Positions 31,314-41,818 of a stretch of DNA of 64,000 nucleotides are shown here, one piece after another (position 1 is the first letter of the stretch; each line of letters starts with the position of its first letter). The position numbers and the translations under genes were made by a program. The notes under the pieces were generated by a model. It worked only from the letters and a program-made list of their open reading frames with translations, searched no databases and was not told the origin of the DNA. The stretch is from Fimbriimonadaceae bacterium (GTDB lineage Bacteria; Armatimonadota; Fimbriimonadia; Fimbriimonadales; Fimbriimonadaceae): positions 2,326,605-2,390,604 of the forward strand of contig JAHBTE010000001.1 of assembly GCA_019638675.1 (NCBI GenBank). The letters are read 5' to 3'.

Positions 31314-32186
31314 TCAATCTTCGTAAATGTCTGCTGCCAGGCTTAACGCGGCAAGAATCTGATGCCCTATTCTTTTGCAGATTTCGTTTAGCGATCCAAC
31401 TGTGAGCCTATTCTTTTTTTCGAAGGCCCGCCAGCGGCGCAATGCCAATTCGTCACTCCAAAACTCCTCTGTAAGGCCGATTGGAAGTGATTGGGGCAGT
31501 GGAGTCTTACGTCTCTTAAATGTTCGTGCCAATGCCTCCGCGAGGCTCTGTCCATCAATCTCGCCGCTTTGGAGTAGTAGGTCCAGGTCAAGATAATCCT
31601 TCATGCGGCTGTTCGCAAGGCCCAGTTTGACGATTGCCTCGAATTTTTCAGCAACTACCGTCTCAGGTGTGTAGGCTCCCATCACGCGCGGAACTTCTCC
31701 TGCGAGGAGTCTGGGGACTTCCACCACATTTGGTTCAGGGGTGACGTCGTCACCGAACCCGACGTCAAGTTGTACACGGAGTTTTGCTGATCCAAGTGTC
31801 CCATTGATCAAGCACCGTAGTCCGCCATAGGCGGTTTCGTCACGAATTTTCTCTACCCGTATCGTATCTGGATCGAATTGCACCCCGTCCTCATCAACTT
31901 CTTGTGTGCAGACCGACCGAATAACATCAGCCAGCGTAGCCTCATCAGCATCGATAAATCCGAGGAGATCAATGTCGCTCGTAGGTCGGTGCATCAACCC
32001 GCGCCAAACCAGAAACATCGTTGCCCCCTTAAGGAGGAATTTGTCGGCATATTTCGACGCGGCCAACCTCGCCAAGAATCTCAATCCGACATAGCGTATG
32101 AGCACCTGGTTATAGTCATCGCTCCTGTCCTTTGCAAGATTGAGGAGCCGCTGTCTAACCGATATCGATTTTGCGTCGCGCGTCAC
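31314..32186 (-). CDS. AbiEii/AbiGii-family nucleotidyltransferase toxin
   Basis: This 290-residue protein is the toxin half of a type IV AbiE-like system. The nucleotidyltransferase motif KGATMFLVWRG...SDIDLLGF gives the Gly and Asp-x-Asp metal site. The family-typical TVVAEKFEAIVKLG and NSRMKDYLDLDLLL follow. The start is GTG, overlapping the antitoxin stop by 4 bp (GTGA). AbiEii-type proteins transfer nucleotides to tRNA and cause growth arrest or abortive phage infection. Both genes look intact, unlike the rest of the island. Confidence 0.92.
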   Translation of the reverse strand: MTRDAKSISVRQRLLNLAKDRSDDYNQVLIRYVGLRFLARLAASKYADKFLLKGATMFLVWRGLMHRPTSDIDLLGFIDADEATLADVIRSVCTQEVDEDGVQFDPDTIRVEKIRDETAYGGLRCLINGTLGSAKLRVQLDVGFGDDVTPEPNVVEVPRLLAGEVPRVMGAYTPETVVAEKFEAIVKLGLANSRMKDYLDLDLLLQSGEIDGQSLAEALARTFKRRKTPLPQSLPIGLTEEFWSDELALRRWRAFEKKNRLTVGSLNEICKRIGHQILAALSLAADIYED

Positions 32187-32821
32187 AGCATTGCCTCAAG
32201 ATAGGGCTGGATTAATCGCCGTGATCGGAGCTCGCCCGCCAAATGAAGGAACTTTGAGACGTCGATCTTCTGCGCATTGATTGCCTCACGCAGAGCTTCA
32301 ACGGCTATCTCATGCCCTACGATTCGTCTAAGACGGAAGCAGTCAATGATCGTCTTTTCAAGACTATATACCTTGACTCTAACTCCCTCAAAGATATGCT
32401 CCTCGCGTCCCAGATCAAAATTTGCGCCCGTCATCGTAACAACTCGGATTCGAGTCTGTCGGGTGCTTGGGATGCGCTTTCCGCGAGATATGGCCAGCCA
32501 GACATCCCAAGGCATTTGCGTCCCCACCTCGTGAATACTGAGCGCTGAGAGGAGACAGATAACGCCGTCGGGCACCGCCATTGCAACCTCGACAAGGCTG
32601 TGTCGTTCAGTTGCCTCGAAATCAGGGTGTCGGTAGAGACCTCTGCCAATCTTCTCTAGTCTTCCAAGTTTAGCGAGCTTGTTTAGGTTCTCTGCCGCTA
32701 GTCCAAGCGCACGAACGTCCGCAGGTGTGACCACCCCTTGCCTCTTCGCAAGTTCCAGAATATCTTCCCACGTATGTCGCACAGTTAGATTATGCATACA
32801 TTTACGTGTGCCTGTATGCAT
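32183..32821 (-). CDS. AbiEi-type antitoxin / winged-helix repressor
   Basis: This is 212 residues from ATG 32821, or 204 from ATG 32797. The N-terminal winged-helix AbiEi_4-type domain is ILELAKRQGVVTPADVRALG, then LNKLAKLGRLEKIGRGLYRHP. The C-terminal AbiEi domain has ICLLSALSIHEVGTQ, PWDVWLAIS and KVYSLEKTIIDCFRLR. Known AbiEi proteins neutralise the toxin without complex formation and repress their own promoter by binding inverted repeats. An inverted repeat lies over both possible start codons. Confidence 0.92.
   Translation of the reverse strand: MHTGTRKCMHNLTVRHTWEDILELAKRQGVVTPADVRALGLAAENLNKLAKLGRLEKIGRGLYRHPDFEATERHSLVEVAMAVPDGVICLLSALSIHEVGTQMPWDVWLAISRGKRIPSTRQTRIRVVTMTGANFDLGREEHIFEGVRVKVYSLEKTIIDCFRLRRIVGHEIAVEALREAINAQKIDVSKFLHLAGELRSRRLIQPYLEAML
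32792..32821. promoter_or_regulatory. inverted repeat at the antitoxin start, candidate AbiEi operator
   Basis: Perfect 9-bp arms ATGCATACA (32792-32800) and TGTATGCAT (32813-32821) are 12 bp apart. Each arm contains one of the two in-frame ATG codons. AbiEi is known to autoregulate through inverted repeats at its promoter. Confidence 0.6.
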
Positions 32822-33403: not shown

Positions 33404-34263
33404 TTGAACAACTCAACCTCGCGAAATTGGACTACTACGACGGTGAAGCATTTGATCAGCAACCGTGCCTACATAGGAGTCCAGGAGTTTGGAGAGTGGA
33501 TAAACGAGACGGCGTGGGAACCCATCGTGGATCGAGGCGTCTTCCAAAAGGCTCAACAGATTCTTAGGTCACAGGTTCGAGTAGTCCGCTCGCCCCGATC
33601 AGATAACTACGTTTATCTCCTTCGTGAGCTGATTTGGTGCCCTCACTGCGGGTGTCGACACGCACCCTCTGTCGCCAAGGGAGGAGCGGTTCGATATTAC
33701 GAATGCCTCCGTGGCAAGAAGAAACTGTCCAATTGTCCAGTCGCACGAGTCAACTGTGACGCTCTCCATCGAACAATCCTCGCTGAGCTGGCTCGTCATG
33801 CGGAGCATCAAACGGTAATGCATCAGGCCATCGCAGACTCTCATGCCTGGTCGGAGCCCGAGCAAGAGAAGGTTGCTCTCCGAGCCGCGCTGGCCGAACA
33901 GCGACGACAGCTTTCGATCAAGCAATCGAACTTGCTGAAGGCAATCGAGAATGGTCAGGTGATTCAAACCCTGTTGGATCGATTACAAGAGTTGGAGCAA
34001 GAGATCAAGGTGCTCGATACGAAAATCTTGGAAGCCGATGAACTTATCGCCCGTTCAACGGCGAAGAGACCGACGGCACAACAAGTGCGGGCAGCGTGGT
34101 CTTCAGCTCTGAACCTGTGGGAGCAAGCCGAAGACGATCAGAAGCAAACGATTCTGAGAGGACTTGTCCATCGCGTTGAAATGCGCGAAAAATCTAAAAC
34201 AGTCGTTCAGATCTCTCATTTTTTTTGTTTCCGAAGGCGAATGGTTCGGAACAACGGAGAATA

Positions 34264-34285
<22 letters not shown>
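33404..34285 (+). pseudogene. large serine recombinase, catalytic domain missing
   Basis: This is about 293 codons from a TTG, with an in-frame TAG shortly upstream. The recombinase domain remnant is RNWTTTTVKHLISNRAYIG, then VFQKAQQIL. A zinc beta-ribbon with CPHCGC and later Cys (YYECLRGKKKLSNCPV) follows, then a coiled coil (about residues 160-225). The N-terminal resolvase domain with the catalytic Ser, about 150 residues or more, is gone, so it cannot recombine DNA. The frame runs 22 bases into the tRNA-fMet 3' end. It was probably the integrase of the element. Confidence 0.82.
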
Positions 34286-34340
<55 letters not shown>

Positions 34341-37160: not shown

Positions 37161-37327
37161 TTGCACCGCCAGGTGAAAATACTAGCTTCCCGAAATTTCT
37201 GCTTCCATTAACCCTTGCTGCATTGAACTCACAGACGAATTCTGCTAGTCTTTGTTACGGTGTCGTAATCGATTTGCGGCGACTGATTGTCTGGTTTATG
37301 CCTGACAAACTTGAGAGGATTTGCGTA

Positions 37328-38167
37328 GTGAAAAAGACTTTAATCGTAGTATTGGCGTTTGGAATTGTTGCCCAAAGCCAAGCCATTGTTCGGCGGCATG
37401 ACGTTGCTGATTCCAATTATCTAGCCCTTGGCAACGTGGGTGCATCTGCAAGCGTTGGACTCGTTTTCAACTCATTCGTTTCGGGCAGTGCTACATACAT
37501 CGGGTTTGGAAATGGATCGCACTGGGCGCTCAGTGCTGGACACGTCCTAGATTTTGGCGGAATGAACACATTTCGGATTAACAACACCAACTTTAGTGTA
37601 AATGGAAGTTTCCGTCCTTCGGATTACAATTCGGGGACGCTGCGTTCGGATATCGCCTTGCTTAGACTAACAACTAACCCAGGGGTAAATGCAGTTGGCA
37701 TGTCCATGCGATCCGACATTACTGGAATGACCTCGATGTTCGCCGGGTACGGGTTAAGCGGTGTTGGAAACAATACAAACCTAATCAGTGATAACCAAAG
37801 GCGCGCGGCTAATAACACCATTGATACTTTCCAAAGTTTTGGTACAAACCAAAACTTCTGGAAAACAACATTCCAAAACCCATCACAGTCTGGAGTTCTC
37901 CCGCTAGAAGGCACTACCGCATCCGGTGACTCAGGCGGCGGTTTCTTCTTCCAAGAAGGTAACACTTGGCTTCTTGCCGGTGTTACTTCATGGGGTACCG
38001 ATAACAACTCCCAATATGGTGATCAAGCGTTCTTTACTACGCTTCACACCAACATGGATTGGATCACCCAAACTTCTGGAATCCAAGCAGTTCCTGAGCC
38101 AACGACTATGGTTCTTTCAGGACTTGCCCTTGCATGGGTTGCTCGGCGACGACGCAACTCAGCCTAA
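37328..38167 (+). CDS. trypsin-like serine protease with PEP-CTERM anchor
   Basis: This is 279 residues from GTG 37328, preceded by GAGAGG. The signal peptide is KKTLIVVLAFGIVAQSQA. The S1 catalytic triad is visible: His in WALSAGHVL, Asp in RSDIALLRL, Ser in ASGDSGGGFF. The C-terminus is a PEP-CTERM sorting signal: VPEPTTMVLSGLALAWVARRRR. PEP-CTERM proteins are processed by exosortase and shown at the surface; no exosortase is in this window. A terminator follows. Confidence 0.93.
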   Translation: MKKTLIVVLAFGIVAQSQAIVRRHDVADSNYLALGNVGASASVGLVFNSFVSGSATYIGFGNGSHWALSAGHVLDFGGMNTFRINNTNFSVNGSFRPSDYNSGTLRSDIALLRLTTNPGVNAVGMSMRSDITGMTSMFAGYGLSGVGNNTNLISDNQRRAANNTIDTFQSFGTNQNFWKTTFQNPSQSGVLPLEGTTASGDSGGGFFFQEGNTWLLAGVTSWGTDNNSQYGDQAFFTTLHTNMDWITQTSGIQAVPEPTTMVLSGLALAWVARRRRNSA

Positions 38168-38180
38168 ATTCACCTTTAAA

Positions 38181-38210
38181 TTGGCCCGGAATATCCGGGC
38201 CAATTTTTTT
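38181..38210 (+). terminator. rho-independent terminator of the protease gene
   Basis: Stem TTGGCCCGG/CCGGGCCAA with loop AATAT is followed by seven T. Confidence 0.93.
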
Positions 38211-38265
38211 GTATCCGCCTTTAAGTCCCAGAATTCACTAACGAACTGGGTAAGTTAGCTATCAG

Positions 38266-38331
38266 ATGTTCTCGATTCACGCGATCCATCATCATCACGC
38301 TACCAATTGGCAGCGGTGTTTGAGCGTGTAA
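38266..38331 (+). CDS. hisL: his operon leader peptide
   Basis: This 21-codon frame from ATG 38266 to TAA 38329-38331 begins MFSIHAIHHHHATN. Five of its first eleven residues are His, with four consecutive His codons at 38287-38298. It lies between the terminator of the previous gene and a strong hairpin-plus-T6 upstream of hisI. This is the classic layout of transcription attenuation by a stalled ribosome, as in enteric hisL. The Shine-Dalgarno site is weak. It is called by composition and context, not by homology. Confidence 0.85.
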   Translation: MFSIHAIHHHHATNWQRCLSV

Positions 38332-38350
38332 GAATCTAGAACAGAATCAA

Positions 38351-38388
38351 AAGCGAGCCCACCGTATTCACGGTGGGCTCGCTTTTTT
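38351..38388 (+). terminator. his operon attenuator hairpin
   Basis: Perfect 15-bp stem AAGCGAGCCCACCGT/ACGGTGGGCTCGCTT with loop ATTC, then TTTTTT, lies 20 bp after the leader-peptide stop and 16 bp before hisI. Upstream, CACGCT (38296-38301) can pair with AGCGTG (38323-38328) as a pause hairpin. CGGTG (38314-38318) can instead pair with CACCG (38360-38364) as a partial antiterminator. The alternative pairings are my inference; the terminator is plain. Confidence 0.88.
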
Positions 38389-38403
38389 ATTCGAGAGCTT
38401 GAA

Positions 38404-38784
38404 ATGAAAATTGACTTTGAAAAATCTGGAGGTTTGGTTCCCGCCATTGTCCAAGATGCGACCACTGGTCGTGTTTTGATGGTGGCAATGATGAATCAAA
38501 CTGCATGGGAGATGACGGTTGAGACGAAGAAAGCAACTTTCTTCAGTCGCAGCCGCAAAAAGTTGTGGATTAAAGGCGAGCAAAGCGGGCACACGTTGGA
38601 GGTAGTTGCCTTGCAAACCGATTGCGACCAAGACGCCATTTTGGTAATGGTTAATCCCACCGTTCCGGGCGTATGCCACGAGGGATACGAGAGTTGCTTC
38701 TTCCGAACGCTTGAAAACGGCGAATGGCTAATCACTGAAGAAAAAGTGTACGACGAGCAAGCGGCTTACGAGGTGAAATCTTGA
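38404..38784 (+). CDS. hisI: phosphoribosyl-AMP cyclohydrolase
   Basis: This 126-residue enzyme opens the adenine ring of PR-AMP, step 3 of histidine synthesis. Conserved features are [15 protein letters not shown], then [20 protein letters not shown] and the metal-binding [12 protein letters not shown] with [13 protein letters not shown]. The length is that of a stand-alone cyclohydrolase; the HisE pyrophosphohydrolase domain is not fused. It is first in the operon behind the attenuator and overlaps hisG by 4 bp. Confidence 0.95.
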
Positions 38785-39650
38785 AACTTAGACTCGGCAT
38801 CCCGAAAGGCAGTTTGGAGACTGCCACCGTAGAACTCTTCCGCCGGGCGGGATGGGCAATTTCTGTCAGTAGTCGTTCGTACTTCCCTACAATTGATGAT
38901 CCTGAAATCGAATGCATGCTCATCCGGGCTCAAGAGATGGCGCGGTACATTGATCAAGGAATTTTGGATGCCGGCCTGACGGGGATGGACTGGATTGCGG
39001 AATCAAACACAGATGTACTTCCCGTCGCCGATTTGGTGTACGCGCGGCAGAGCTTTGGCAAAGTCCGCTGGGTTTTGGCCGTTCCTGAAGATTCTCCGAT
39101 TCAGTCAGTCAAGGATTTGGAAGGCAAAGTCATCGCGACCGAATTGGTCGGGGCAACCCAAAACTATCTTGCTCGAAACGGCGTGACGGCTAAGGTCGAA
39201 TTCAGTTGGGGCGCAACAGAAGTTAAGCCGCCGATTCTCGCCGATGCAATTGTGGAAGTTACCGAGACTGGTTCTTCCTTGCGGGCAAACAAGCTTCGGA
39301 TTGTAGAAACCGTTTTGGAATCGAACACTCAACTTATCGCAAATAAGTCAGCTTGGGAAGACCCATGGAAGCAACAGAAGCTTCAAGACATGAAGCTATT
39401 GCTGGAAGGGGCAATCGCCGCAGTCGGATGTGTGGGATTGATGCTCAACGTGGCTTCTGGCAATTTGCCAGAGGTTCTTGAAGTTTTGCCTGCATTGAAT
39501 AGTCCAACAATTTCACCGCTCGCCGATGGAACTTGGGCGGCAATCAACACGGTCTTGCCCGAATCCAGCGTAAGAGCAATCATCCCAAAACTCAAACAAG
39601 CAGGTGCTACCGGAATCGTTGAATACCCGCTCAACAAGATCGTGGTTTAA
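38781..39650 (+). CDS. hisG: ATP phosphoribosyltransferase, long form
   Basis: This 289-residue enzyme is the first step of histidine synthesis (ATP + PRPP). The catalytic part shows [41 protein letters not shown] and [15 protein letters not shown]. The length and the C-terminal ~75 residues (an ACT-like regulatory domain with GCVGLMLNV and [11 protein letters not shown]) mark the long, HisZ-independent form, which is feedback-inhibited by histidine. It thus adds an enzyme-level control to the leader's transcription control. Confidence 0.95.
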
Positions 39651-39653
39651 GCA

Positions 39654-40238
39654 ATGGTAGCAATTGTTGATTACGGTTCGGGAAATCTTCACTCGGTGAA
39701 AAATGCGCTTCGGTATCTCGGTATTGACTACCAAGTGACCTCGCTCGAAAAGGAGATTGAACAAGCCGAGCGCGTACTTCTACCCGGAGTTGGCAACTTT
39801 GGGCAGATGATCAAAGCCATTGATGATCTCAAGTTGCGAGACTGCTTACACAAGGCCGCAACGGATGGGCGACCCTTTCTAGGAATATGCCTCGGCATGC
39901 AAGCGATGTTTGAATCAAGCGCAGAAGCACCTGAACTACCTGGCCTTGGGATACTTCCGGGCACAGTTAAGAAATTCGAACTTGACCTCGCAGTTCCGCA
40001 CATGGGTTGGAACGAAGTCATTCCGACAGACGCATTAGTTCCTGTTGCTTGGTACACGTTTGCAAACTCTTACTACGTGCCTGTACAAGAAGCGACAATC
40101 GCAACCTGCCACTACGGAATTCCTTTTTCCGCCGCAATCAGAGCTGGCAATGCGATCGGCGTACAGTTTCATCCTGAAAAATCCGGCACCGCAGGATTAC
40201 AGTTCCTCAAGCAATTTTGTGAGATGTCATCATGCTAG
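39654..40238 (+). CDS. hisH: imidazole glycerol phosphate synthase, glutamine amidotransferase subunit
   Basis: This 194-residue class I glutaminase feeds ammonia to His[22 protein letters not shown] begins the domain. The nucleophile Cys is in [12 protein letters not shown]. The His-Glu pair is in [15 protein letters not shown] is also conserved. The gene lies 3 bp after hisG and overlaps hisF by 7 bp, consistent with the HisH-HisF heterodimer being made in equal amounts. Confidence 0.95.
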
Positions 40239-40993
40239 CCAAGCGAATCATTCCCTGCCTTGATATTGACAACGGTCGAGTCGTAAAAGGTGTGAACTTT
40301 GTCAATCTACGCGACGCTGGCGACCCGGTGGAACTTGCCAAACGATACAACGATGAAGGTGCCGATGAGATCGCACTACTCGATATCAGCGCGACTCACG
40401 AGGGCCGAGAAACGATGGTCGAAGTCGTTGCGAAAATTGCTGAGCAAGTATTCGTCCCTCTCACAGTGGGTGGCGGAATTTCCACTGTCAATCAAGCTAA
40501 ACAACTTCTTTATTCTGGGGCAGATAAAGTTGCAGTGAACAGTGCGGCTGTTCGGAATCCACTTCTTATTCGCGAACTGGCCGATCATTTTGGCTCTCAA
40601 GCCGTCGTGCTCGCGGTAGATGCAAGGCGAAAAGCATCTGCTTGGGAAGTCACGGTCAACGGGGGCCGAATCGCAACCGACTTAAACGCCATTGAGTGGA
40701 TCGAGCGAGGCGTTGCGCTCGGCGCAGGAGAAATACTGCTCACTTCCATGGATGCCGATGGAGTCAAAACCGGGTTTGATCTGCCATTGAATCAAGCGGC
40801 TTTAGATGCAGTCGGCGTTCCGATCATCGCTTCTGGGGGAGCGGGGACTAAGGAACACTTCTGTGTCCTGTTCCAACAAACAAACTGCCACGCCGCCCTT
40901 GCCGCATCGGTTTTTCACTTCGGATCAATTGAAATATCCGATCTGAAATGCTACTTGGAAGTCAACGACATACCGGTCAGGAAAACACCATGA
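40232..40993 (+). CDS. hisF: imidazole glycerol phosphate synthase, cyclase subunit
   Basis: This 253-residue (beta/alpha)8 barrel has both catalytic Asp residues: [19 protein letters not shown] and [15 protein letters not shown]. Phosphate-binding loops VGGGI and SGGAGT are present. It uses ammonia from HisH to make IGP and AICAR; the latter feeds purine synthesis downstream of PurC. It overlaps hisA by 4 bp. Confidence 0.96.
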
Positions 40994-41685
40994 TCATCCC
41001 GTGTATTGATCTGATGGGCGGCAAAGTTGTCCAGCTAGTTCAAGGCAAAACCCCAGCACTAGAACTCGACTCAGTAGACGATGCACTTCGCCTGTTTCAA
41101 GCGTTTTCGCTCATCAACGTCATTGATCTTGATGCGGCAATGAGTCAAGGCAATAACGACGCGCTTGTTGAGGAAATCGTGAAGAACAAGCGCGCTCGGG
41201 TTGGCGGTGGAGTGCGGTCTGTTGAACGGGCCACGCAACTCATTGATTTAGGAGCGGAGCAAATCATTGTGGGAACCCGTGCTTTCTCACAAGATGGCGT
41301 AGATCACGACTTCCTCAATTCACTCAGCAACAAAATTGGAACAGAGCGAGTGATCATCGCCATTGATAGCCTTGCCGGTCAGGTTGCAATTAGAGGGTGG
41401 CGAGAGAGTATTCGAATGAGTCCAGCCGAGGCAGTTCGTATATTAGAGCCTTACTGCGGCGGGTTCCTTTGCACTTTTGTGGACAACGAAGGCACTATGC
41501 AAGGCACCGACCTCAAACTCTTCCATTCGCTAAGGCAAGCAACCGACAAAACTCTGATCGCCGCTGGCGGGATTGCGAGCCTTGATGAGGTACGCGAGTT
41601 AGTGCAAGCAGATATTCAGGTTGCGCTTGGCATGGCAATTTACACTGGGCGACTGAAATTGGATCACCTTCTTGAATTCGCCTAA
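40990..41685 (+). CDS. hisA: phosphoribosylformimino-AICAR ribotide isomerase
   Basis: This is 231 residues from ATG 40990, in the ATGA overlap with hisF. The barrel is homologous to HisF, with catalytic Asp in [16 protein letters not shown] and an acidic partner in the barrel's second half. Phosphate loops are VGGGVRS and AAGGIAS. It is the last his gene in this operon. hisB, hisC, hisD and hisE are not present in this window, so the pathway is split over several loci. Confidence 0.94.
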
Positions 41686-41732: not shown

Positions 41733-41818
41733 GGGCGAGTGGCGGAATTGGTAGACGCACTGGGTTTAGGTTCCAGCGGTTAATAGCTGTGAGAGTTCGA
41801 GTCTCTCCTCGCCCACCA
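41733..41818 (+). tRNA. tRNA-Leu (anticodon UAG)
   Basis: This is an 86-nt class II tRNA. The acceptor stem is GGGCGAG/CTCGCCC. The anticodon stem CTGGG/TCCAG encloses loop TTTAGGT, anticodon TAG. A long variable arm (around CGGTTAATAGCTGTG) is present. The T arm is GAGTTCGAGTCTC. The CCA end is encoded at 41816-41818. Confidence 0.96.

Follow-up and report, generated by a model that had tools for sequence, protein, structure and literature searches.

In trpL-type attenuators, the antiterminator strand lies near the stop codon of the leader and is covered by a ribosome that has reached that codon. For histidine, leader peptides were reportedly described in Actinobacteria by Korolev et al. in 2015, a work cited in PMC4833913, and a 2010 study by Lopatovskaya et al. 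is said to be the most likely source of any earlier prediction of such attenuators. The literature search, which was carried out mostly outside subscription journals, found no his attenuator described for Armatimonadota or Acidobacteriota, in agreement with the initial annotation of the locus, which knew of none in this lineage. The amino acid attenuator motifs in Rfam are considered to be mainly gamma-proteobacterial in origin (PMC3766115). In Firmicutes, His attenuators have been predicted from alignments within small groups (the Bacillus cereus group, Peptostreptococcaceae and Erysipelotrichales), and Lutispora has been inferred to have received an attenuated his operon by transfer (PMC9413887). 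In bacilli, His leader peptides precede hisS and hisZ, and the attenuators predicted in Acidobacteria almost all lacked an assigned function (PMC2965389).

The window (the whole stretch of 64,000 nucleotides of Fimbriimonadaceae DNA analyzed here, from a genome of 2.85 Mb) contains a his operon preceded by a region, 38266-38388, that is very probably a ribosome-mediated transcription attenuator of hisI-G-H-F-A sensing charged tRNA-His, with the unit as a whole probably acquired horizontally (Table 1). The leader peptide, MFSIHAIHHHHATNWQRCLSV, has a fifth His at codon 5 in addition to the run of four, ends with TAA at 38329-38331 and is the sole HHHH-containing ORF of 8-60 codons on either strand of the window. 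Genome-wide, 28 matches to the His4 pattern were detected, four of them in short frames; besides the leader, two of these are the ends of frames that stay open upstream over at least 390 nt and the third (L041) lies antisense to a coding gene, so that no second His leader was found. The hisD and hisB genes are located elsewhere in this genome, and no His-run leader was found upstream of either. A strong Shine-Dalgarno sequence is absent at the leader start, and the stretch that separates the leader from the upstream terminator yielded no sigma-70-like promoter.

A gap of 17 nt separates the leader stop codon from the terminator stem, or 21 nt if counted to the G+C-rich part of the stem, which is 13 bp long when the A4/T4 flank is excluded; folding of the 165-nt region yields z = -6.7. 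Two defining elements of an attenuator are present in the window, namely a short leader ORF rich in codons for the product amino acid ahead of the his genes and an intrinsic terminator, here the 17-bp stem with T6, between the leader and the first gene. Much of this organization was recognized in the initial annotation: the 21-codon frame with four consecutive His codons is borne out by reading 38266-38331, the partial his operon does start with hisI and contains no hisD, hisC or hisB between hisG and hisH, and the long-form HisG is confirmed by the HisG_C match. The hairpin had been described as a 15-bp stem that follows the leader after 20 bp, with a 4-nt loop and T6; the loop and T6 are correct but the stem and the gap are revised as given above. 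Similarly, the proposed CACGCT/AGCGTG pause hairpin holds as an exact complement but is not a well-conserved element, given that the closest relative, G003, retains only four of the six pairs.

Table 1. Features of the his attenuator and operon in the window (positions are those of the window)
Feature	Position	Strand	Basis or comment
Terminator of the upstream PEP-CTERM gene, separating that gene from the his operon	38178..38206	+	G003 has the same hairpin with a different sequence
his leader peptide ORF, 21 codons	38266..38331	+	Sequence; homologues in all relatives with the same operon type
Four consecutive His codons, CAT CAT CAT CAC	38287..38298	+	Sequence; expected ribosome stall site
Possible pause hairpin, CACGCT 38296-38301 / AGCGTG 38323-38328	38296..38328	+	Exact complements in the window; weak
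Antiterminator strand GCGGUG, last codons of the leader ORF	38313..38318	+	Pairs with CACCGU 38360-38365
Intrinsic terminator hairpin, 17-bp stem, arms 38349-38365 / 38370-38386, loop ATTC 38366-38369	38349..38386	+	Fold about -32 kcal/mol
U-tract of the terminator, T6	38383..38388	+	Sequence
hisI, phosphoribosyl-AMP cyclohydrolase	38404..38784	+	PF01502, 107 bits
hisG, long-form ATP phosphoribosyltransferase with C-terminal regulatory domain	38781..39650	+	PF01634 and PF08029 (HisG_C, 82.7 bits)
hisH, glutamine amidotransferase subunit	39654..40238	+	PF00117, operon position
hisF	40232..40993	+	PF00977, 269 bits
hisA	40990..41685	+	PF00977, 164 bits

A search of 113 genomes of the same class identified HisG of the operon type in six, and a seventh genome (G007) has the respective HisI on a contig that ends just after hisI. 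All seven operon-type Fimbriimonadia (the window genome, G003, G007, G012, G019, G086 and G087) possess a His-run leader and a hairpin in front of hisI. The leader peptides of the relatives are MFLIQAIHHHHATNWQRCLIV in G003, MARFHSAQHHHATNGLRCCRA in G086 (where the T-run is interrupted), ...IHRHHHHSGVKSLRQCGI in G007, MKFSLNALHHHHVNAIHPRRGSRL in G012, MAIRTVHHRHHHHAGLFRRARR in G019 and MRNFSHRHLHHNAHPLRQFGTTE in G087, the last one being identical to the leader of locus L103. None of the operon-type Armatimonadota relatives lacks the His run, and the terminator stems of the seven are largely different (e.g., GCGAGCCCACCG, CAGGCTCACCG, GACCCCCCGC, GGCCCGCATCC and GCCGAGCCTGC); a relative retaining the hairpin without the His run, which had been named as a potential counterexample, was not found among the operon-type Armatimonadota. 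In the comparison of the window with G003, nucleotide identity is 94% in the leader ORF, 100% in the spacer and 94-100% in the stem arms, exceeding the values for hisI (84%) and for the immediately preceding DNA (63%); none of the four loop positions is identical. In the 26 relatives from the same order that carry a scattered, native hisG, no His-run leader with a terminator was detected within 1300 nt upstream of the gene (a loose HGHH frame in one of them, L159, overlaps the hisG start), and native-type hisI genes yielded just two loose His-containing frames, neither with a terminator. The nearest named record, L059, is a Fimbriimonadaceae MAG with a HisI 91% identical to that of the window, which places the window in Armatimonadota, a phylum that has received little study.

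A scan of 84,980 species genomes identified 80 loci, most of them in Acidobacteriota (Bryobacterales, Solibacteraceae) and the rest in Acidimicrobiaceae, some Myxococcota and Thermodesulfobacteriota, and a few oddly labeled MAGs. Among the latter, the his operons on L081 (1-6592, labeled Arcobacter) and L110 (1-7464, labeled Chthoniobacterales) group with Acidobacteriota, and both are likely to be mis-binned MAG contigs. Of the 79 named loci (the 80 scan loci minus L059), 59 passed a screen that required both a His-rich leader and a terminator; they come from Acidobacteriota, Acidimicrobiaceae and Armatimonadota. The full tally of 65 additionally includes five Fimbriimonadaceae and, as the positive control, E. 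coli hisL. None of the 15 loci outside the high-identity clade passed the joint screen, and the misses within the clade include L077 and L082, which are truncated by a contig end, and L065 and L097, where no terminator was recognized. In most relatives, the hairpin is followed by a U-rich tail. The gene order in the examples inspected is leader-hisI-G-D-C-B-H-F-A, with variants such as hisB between the hisG-proximal genes and hisH in G012 and hisD alone between hisG and hisH in L103. By clustering of HisI and HisG and by gene order, the window operon is of the Acidobacteriota hisIGDCBHFA type with hisD, hisC and hisB missing.

Taken together, it appears reasonably probable that there is an undescribed family of his attenuators that spans Acidobacteriota, Acidimicrobiaceae and some Armatimonadota and moves between phyla as a ready-made regulated operon, such that the leader tail, the terminator 5' arm and the 3' arm keep re-evolving jointly while the His run stays constant. 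In the lineage of the window, this operon would have taken the place of the scattered native genes in one genus, with a later loss of hisD, hisC and hisB.

With respect to its origin, the window operon is closest to those of Acidobacteriota and of Acidimicrobiaceae, a group of Actinobacteria, and differs from those of most other Armatimonadota, which the initial annotation did not anticipate. The window HisG shares 74-84% identity with its counterparts in operon-type genera elsewhere in the family and about 70-79% with HisG of leader-bearing Acidobacteriota, but only 52-57% with HisG of the native type, which four genomes of the same genus also have. The genus is a mixed one, with the attenuated operon in some genomes and native-type genes in others. 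In the HisG tree, the window groups with Acidobacteriota and Acidimicrobiaceae (98 SH-aLRT), apart from the 26 native-type relatives (99); the corresponding supports in the HisI+HisG tree are 99 and 100. The alternative, vertical inheritance of the attenuated operon in Armatimonadota followed by its loss or scattering in most members, is compatible with AU tests in which all Armatimonadota were forced into one clade (not rejected, p 0.352 for HisG and 0.115 for HisI+HisG), but it is unlikely in view of the identity values, the separation of the native and operon types into distinct clades and the gene order, L-hisI-G-D-C-B-H-F-A, that is common to Acidobacteriota. Thus, the sequence identities, the gene order and the branch support are good evidence of transfer, although, given the AU tests, they do not formally prove it. 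The operon and its leader were probably acquired between phyla as one unit, and the donor may have been an Acidobacteriota-like organism related to Bryobacterales. Under this scenario of transfer, the attenuated unit with its leader would have reached some Fimbriimonadaceae horizontally and replaced the scattered native hisI and hisG.

Several features of the surrounding DNA are worth recording. In the region 33404-34340, the C-terminal part of an apparent large serine recombinase abuts a tRNA-Met gene (34264-34340, minus strand), which suggests that a mobile element was inserted at this tRNA gene, about 4 kb upstream of the his operon; direct repeats of at least 24 bp that could mark the ends of the element were not detected between 22000 and 43000. 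Two adjacent minus-strand genes at 31314-32821 resemble, by eye, a pair of the AbiEi/AbiEii type (a nucleotidyltransferase-like protein and a winged-helix partner) and might constitute a toxin-antitoxin or phage-defense module. Just 5' of the his operon lies a gene for a trypsin-like protease with a PEP-CTERM sorting signal (37304-38164), with its own terminator at the end. Directly downstream of hisA, there is a tRNA-Leu gene (anticodon TAG, 41733-41818), a possible landing site for a transferred operon.

The leader, the His run, the terminator and their conservation, the antiterminator complementarity across the family and the phylogenetic placement of the operon are all direct results of the computation. 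Ribosome stalling, termination in the cell and a response to histidine at 38266-38388 are inferred, as is the direction of transfer, and the mechanism can be outlined as follows. When His-tRNA is plentiful, the ribosome would pass the four His codons, reach the stop codon and cover GCGGUG, in which case the terminator (38349-38388) would form and transcription would end before hisI. When His-tRNA is scarce, the ribosome would stall on the His codons and leave GCGGUG exposed, so that this strand could pair with CACCGU of the terminator 5' arm and RNA polymerase would read into the operon.

The initial annotation proposed pairing of CGGTG (38314-38318) with CACCG of the terminator arm and suggested covariation analysis in related genomes. 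The sequences are as described, and with an additional G.U pair the helix reaches 6 bp. When compared with dinucleotide shuffles, this pairing yields p = 0.12 in the window's own cluster, which is not significant by itself, and 0.05 in G086, and the window helix is the weakest part of the local case. For the family as a whole, pairing was computed locus by locus between the terminator 5' arm and the segment that begins where the main His run ends and reaches up to that terminator (the main run was used to set the start because stray late His residues blur it). Combined over 30 sequence clusters, 15 of which reach p of 0.05 or less, this complementarity gives a Fisher p of 6e-14, a value that overstates certainty because the clusters are related by descent and are not fully independent. 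The control pairing with the terminator 3' arm, which is of like composition, shows no excess over shuffles (p 0.89). When arms are swapped between loci, each segment fits its own arm better than foreign ones, with the median p of 0.0005 over 60 random choices of representatives, the smallest value attainable with the 2000 permutations performed per choice; hand-picked representatives gave p 0.0001, and the random choice was used instead. The same test on the six Armatimonadota loci alone gives p 0.07, and the window segment fits its own arm no better than foreign arms. Clear cases are L103 (leader CGGCAGUUCGGC, arm GCCGAGCCUGCCG) and Acidimicrobiaceae (leader CGACGGGC, arm GCCCGUCG).

Across the family, the antiterminator segment sits mostly within the last codons of the leader and therefore would be covered by a ribosome at the stop codon and largely free when the ribosome stalls on the His codons. 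In the model, pairing of the terminator 5' arm in the window is 0.59 with the ribosome at the His run and 0.35 with the ribosome at the stop codon (family averages, 0.62 and 0.42, respectively). The family-wide pairing supports ribosome-mediated transcription attenuation with an antiterminator located mostly in the last leader codons. The third element of the attenuator class, a ribosome-dependent antiterminator that excludes the terminator, is accordingly found at the level of the family, with the window alone remaining at the p value given above. Because the window helix is far weaker than the terminator, it could act only kinetically.

Regulation of translation instead of transcription termination, with the leader acting through re-initiation or hiding the ribosome-binding site of hisI, is very unlikely. 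Translational his attenuators are known, and re-initiation can be helped by leader ORFs close to a gene (PMC9413887, PMC4833913), but the window hairpin ends in T6 and most relatives have U-rich tails. The hairpin stops 15 nt short of the hisI ATG, and the leader stop codon is 72 nt away from hisI, farther than the 10-13 nt typical of re-initiation (PMC4833913). It is also very unlikely that the four His codons arose by chance and that the hairpin simply terminates or insulates, with a constant level of read-through and no histidine sensing. This explanation would fit the weak window pairing and the very stable terminator, but hardly agrees with the absence of any 8-60-codon HHHH ORF when the intergenic region was dinucleotide-shuffled 20,000 times, retention of the run in all operon-type relatives despite differing terminator sequences, conservation of the leader region above that of hisI, and the family-wide antiterminator signal. 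The overall reading of the locus as an attenuator is supported by this retention of the His run while the terminators change, together with the antiterminator signal across the family.

If correct, this reading brings phyla without a his attenuator in the literature examined into the range of ribosome-mediated histidine attenuation, and the covariation indicates that a regulatory RNA can stay functional even as its stem sequences are replaced. The operon and its sensor apparently moved jointly between phyla, and the mixed genus allows his genes with and without attenuation to be compared directly.

In its mode of action, the proposed switch resembles enteric hisL and the attenuators predicted in Firmicutes, but the specific match to the enteric hisL design put forward in the initial annotation does not hold. 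A search with RF00514 (His_leader) yields no match in 38150-38500 even at E up to 10 (threshold 49 bits), and none of 18 related loci reaches the gathering score, whereas the E. coli control scores 131.6 bits; as far as that model tells, the window attenuator is not a member of RF00514. A T-box riboswitch was not found in the window at the gathering score or in 38150-38500 at E up to 10. The match to RF00506 (Thr_leader) scores 35.3 bits, below the 55-bit gathering score, and 26.4 bits on the other strand, as for a bare hairpin, and the codons are for His, not Thr; this and other sub-threshold Rfam matches (BSnc120, MicC and others) are attributed to the hairpin.

E. coli hisL also controls a his operon and resembles the window locus in that a leader peptide with a His run is combined with an antiterminator that competes with an intrinsic terminator ahead of the first his gene. 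However, its antiterminator strand lies about 40 nt past the last His codon, outside the leader ORF, whereas in the family described here it is mostly within the last leader codons, and the first gene after the attenuator is hisG in the enteric operon but hisI in the window. The leaders of hisS and hisZ in bacilli (PMC2965389) similarly represent attenuators with a His-codon ORF outside Proteobacteria but differ in the target gene and the phylum. The His attenuators of Firmicutes (PMC9413887), likened here by description, share three to five consecutive His codons and alternative terminator and antiterminator hairpins, and occur in other phyla than the present family. The placement of the antiterminator strand under a ribosome at the stop codon is the same, on general knowledge, as in trpL-type attenuators, with Trp codons there and His codons here.
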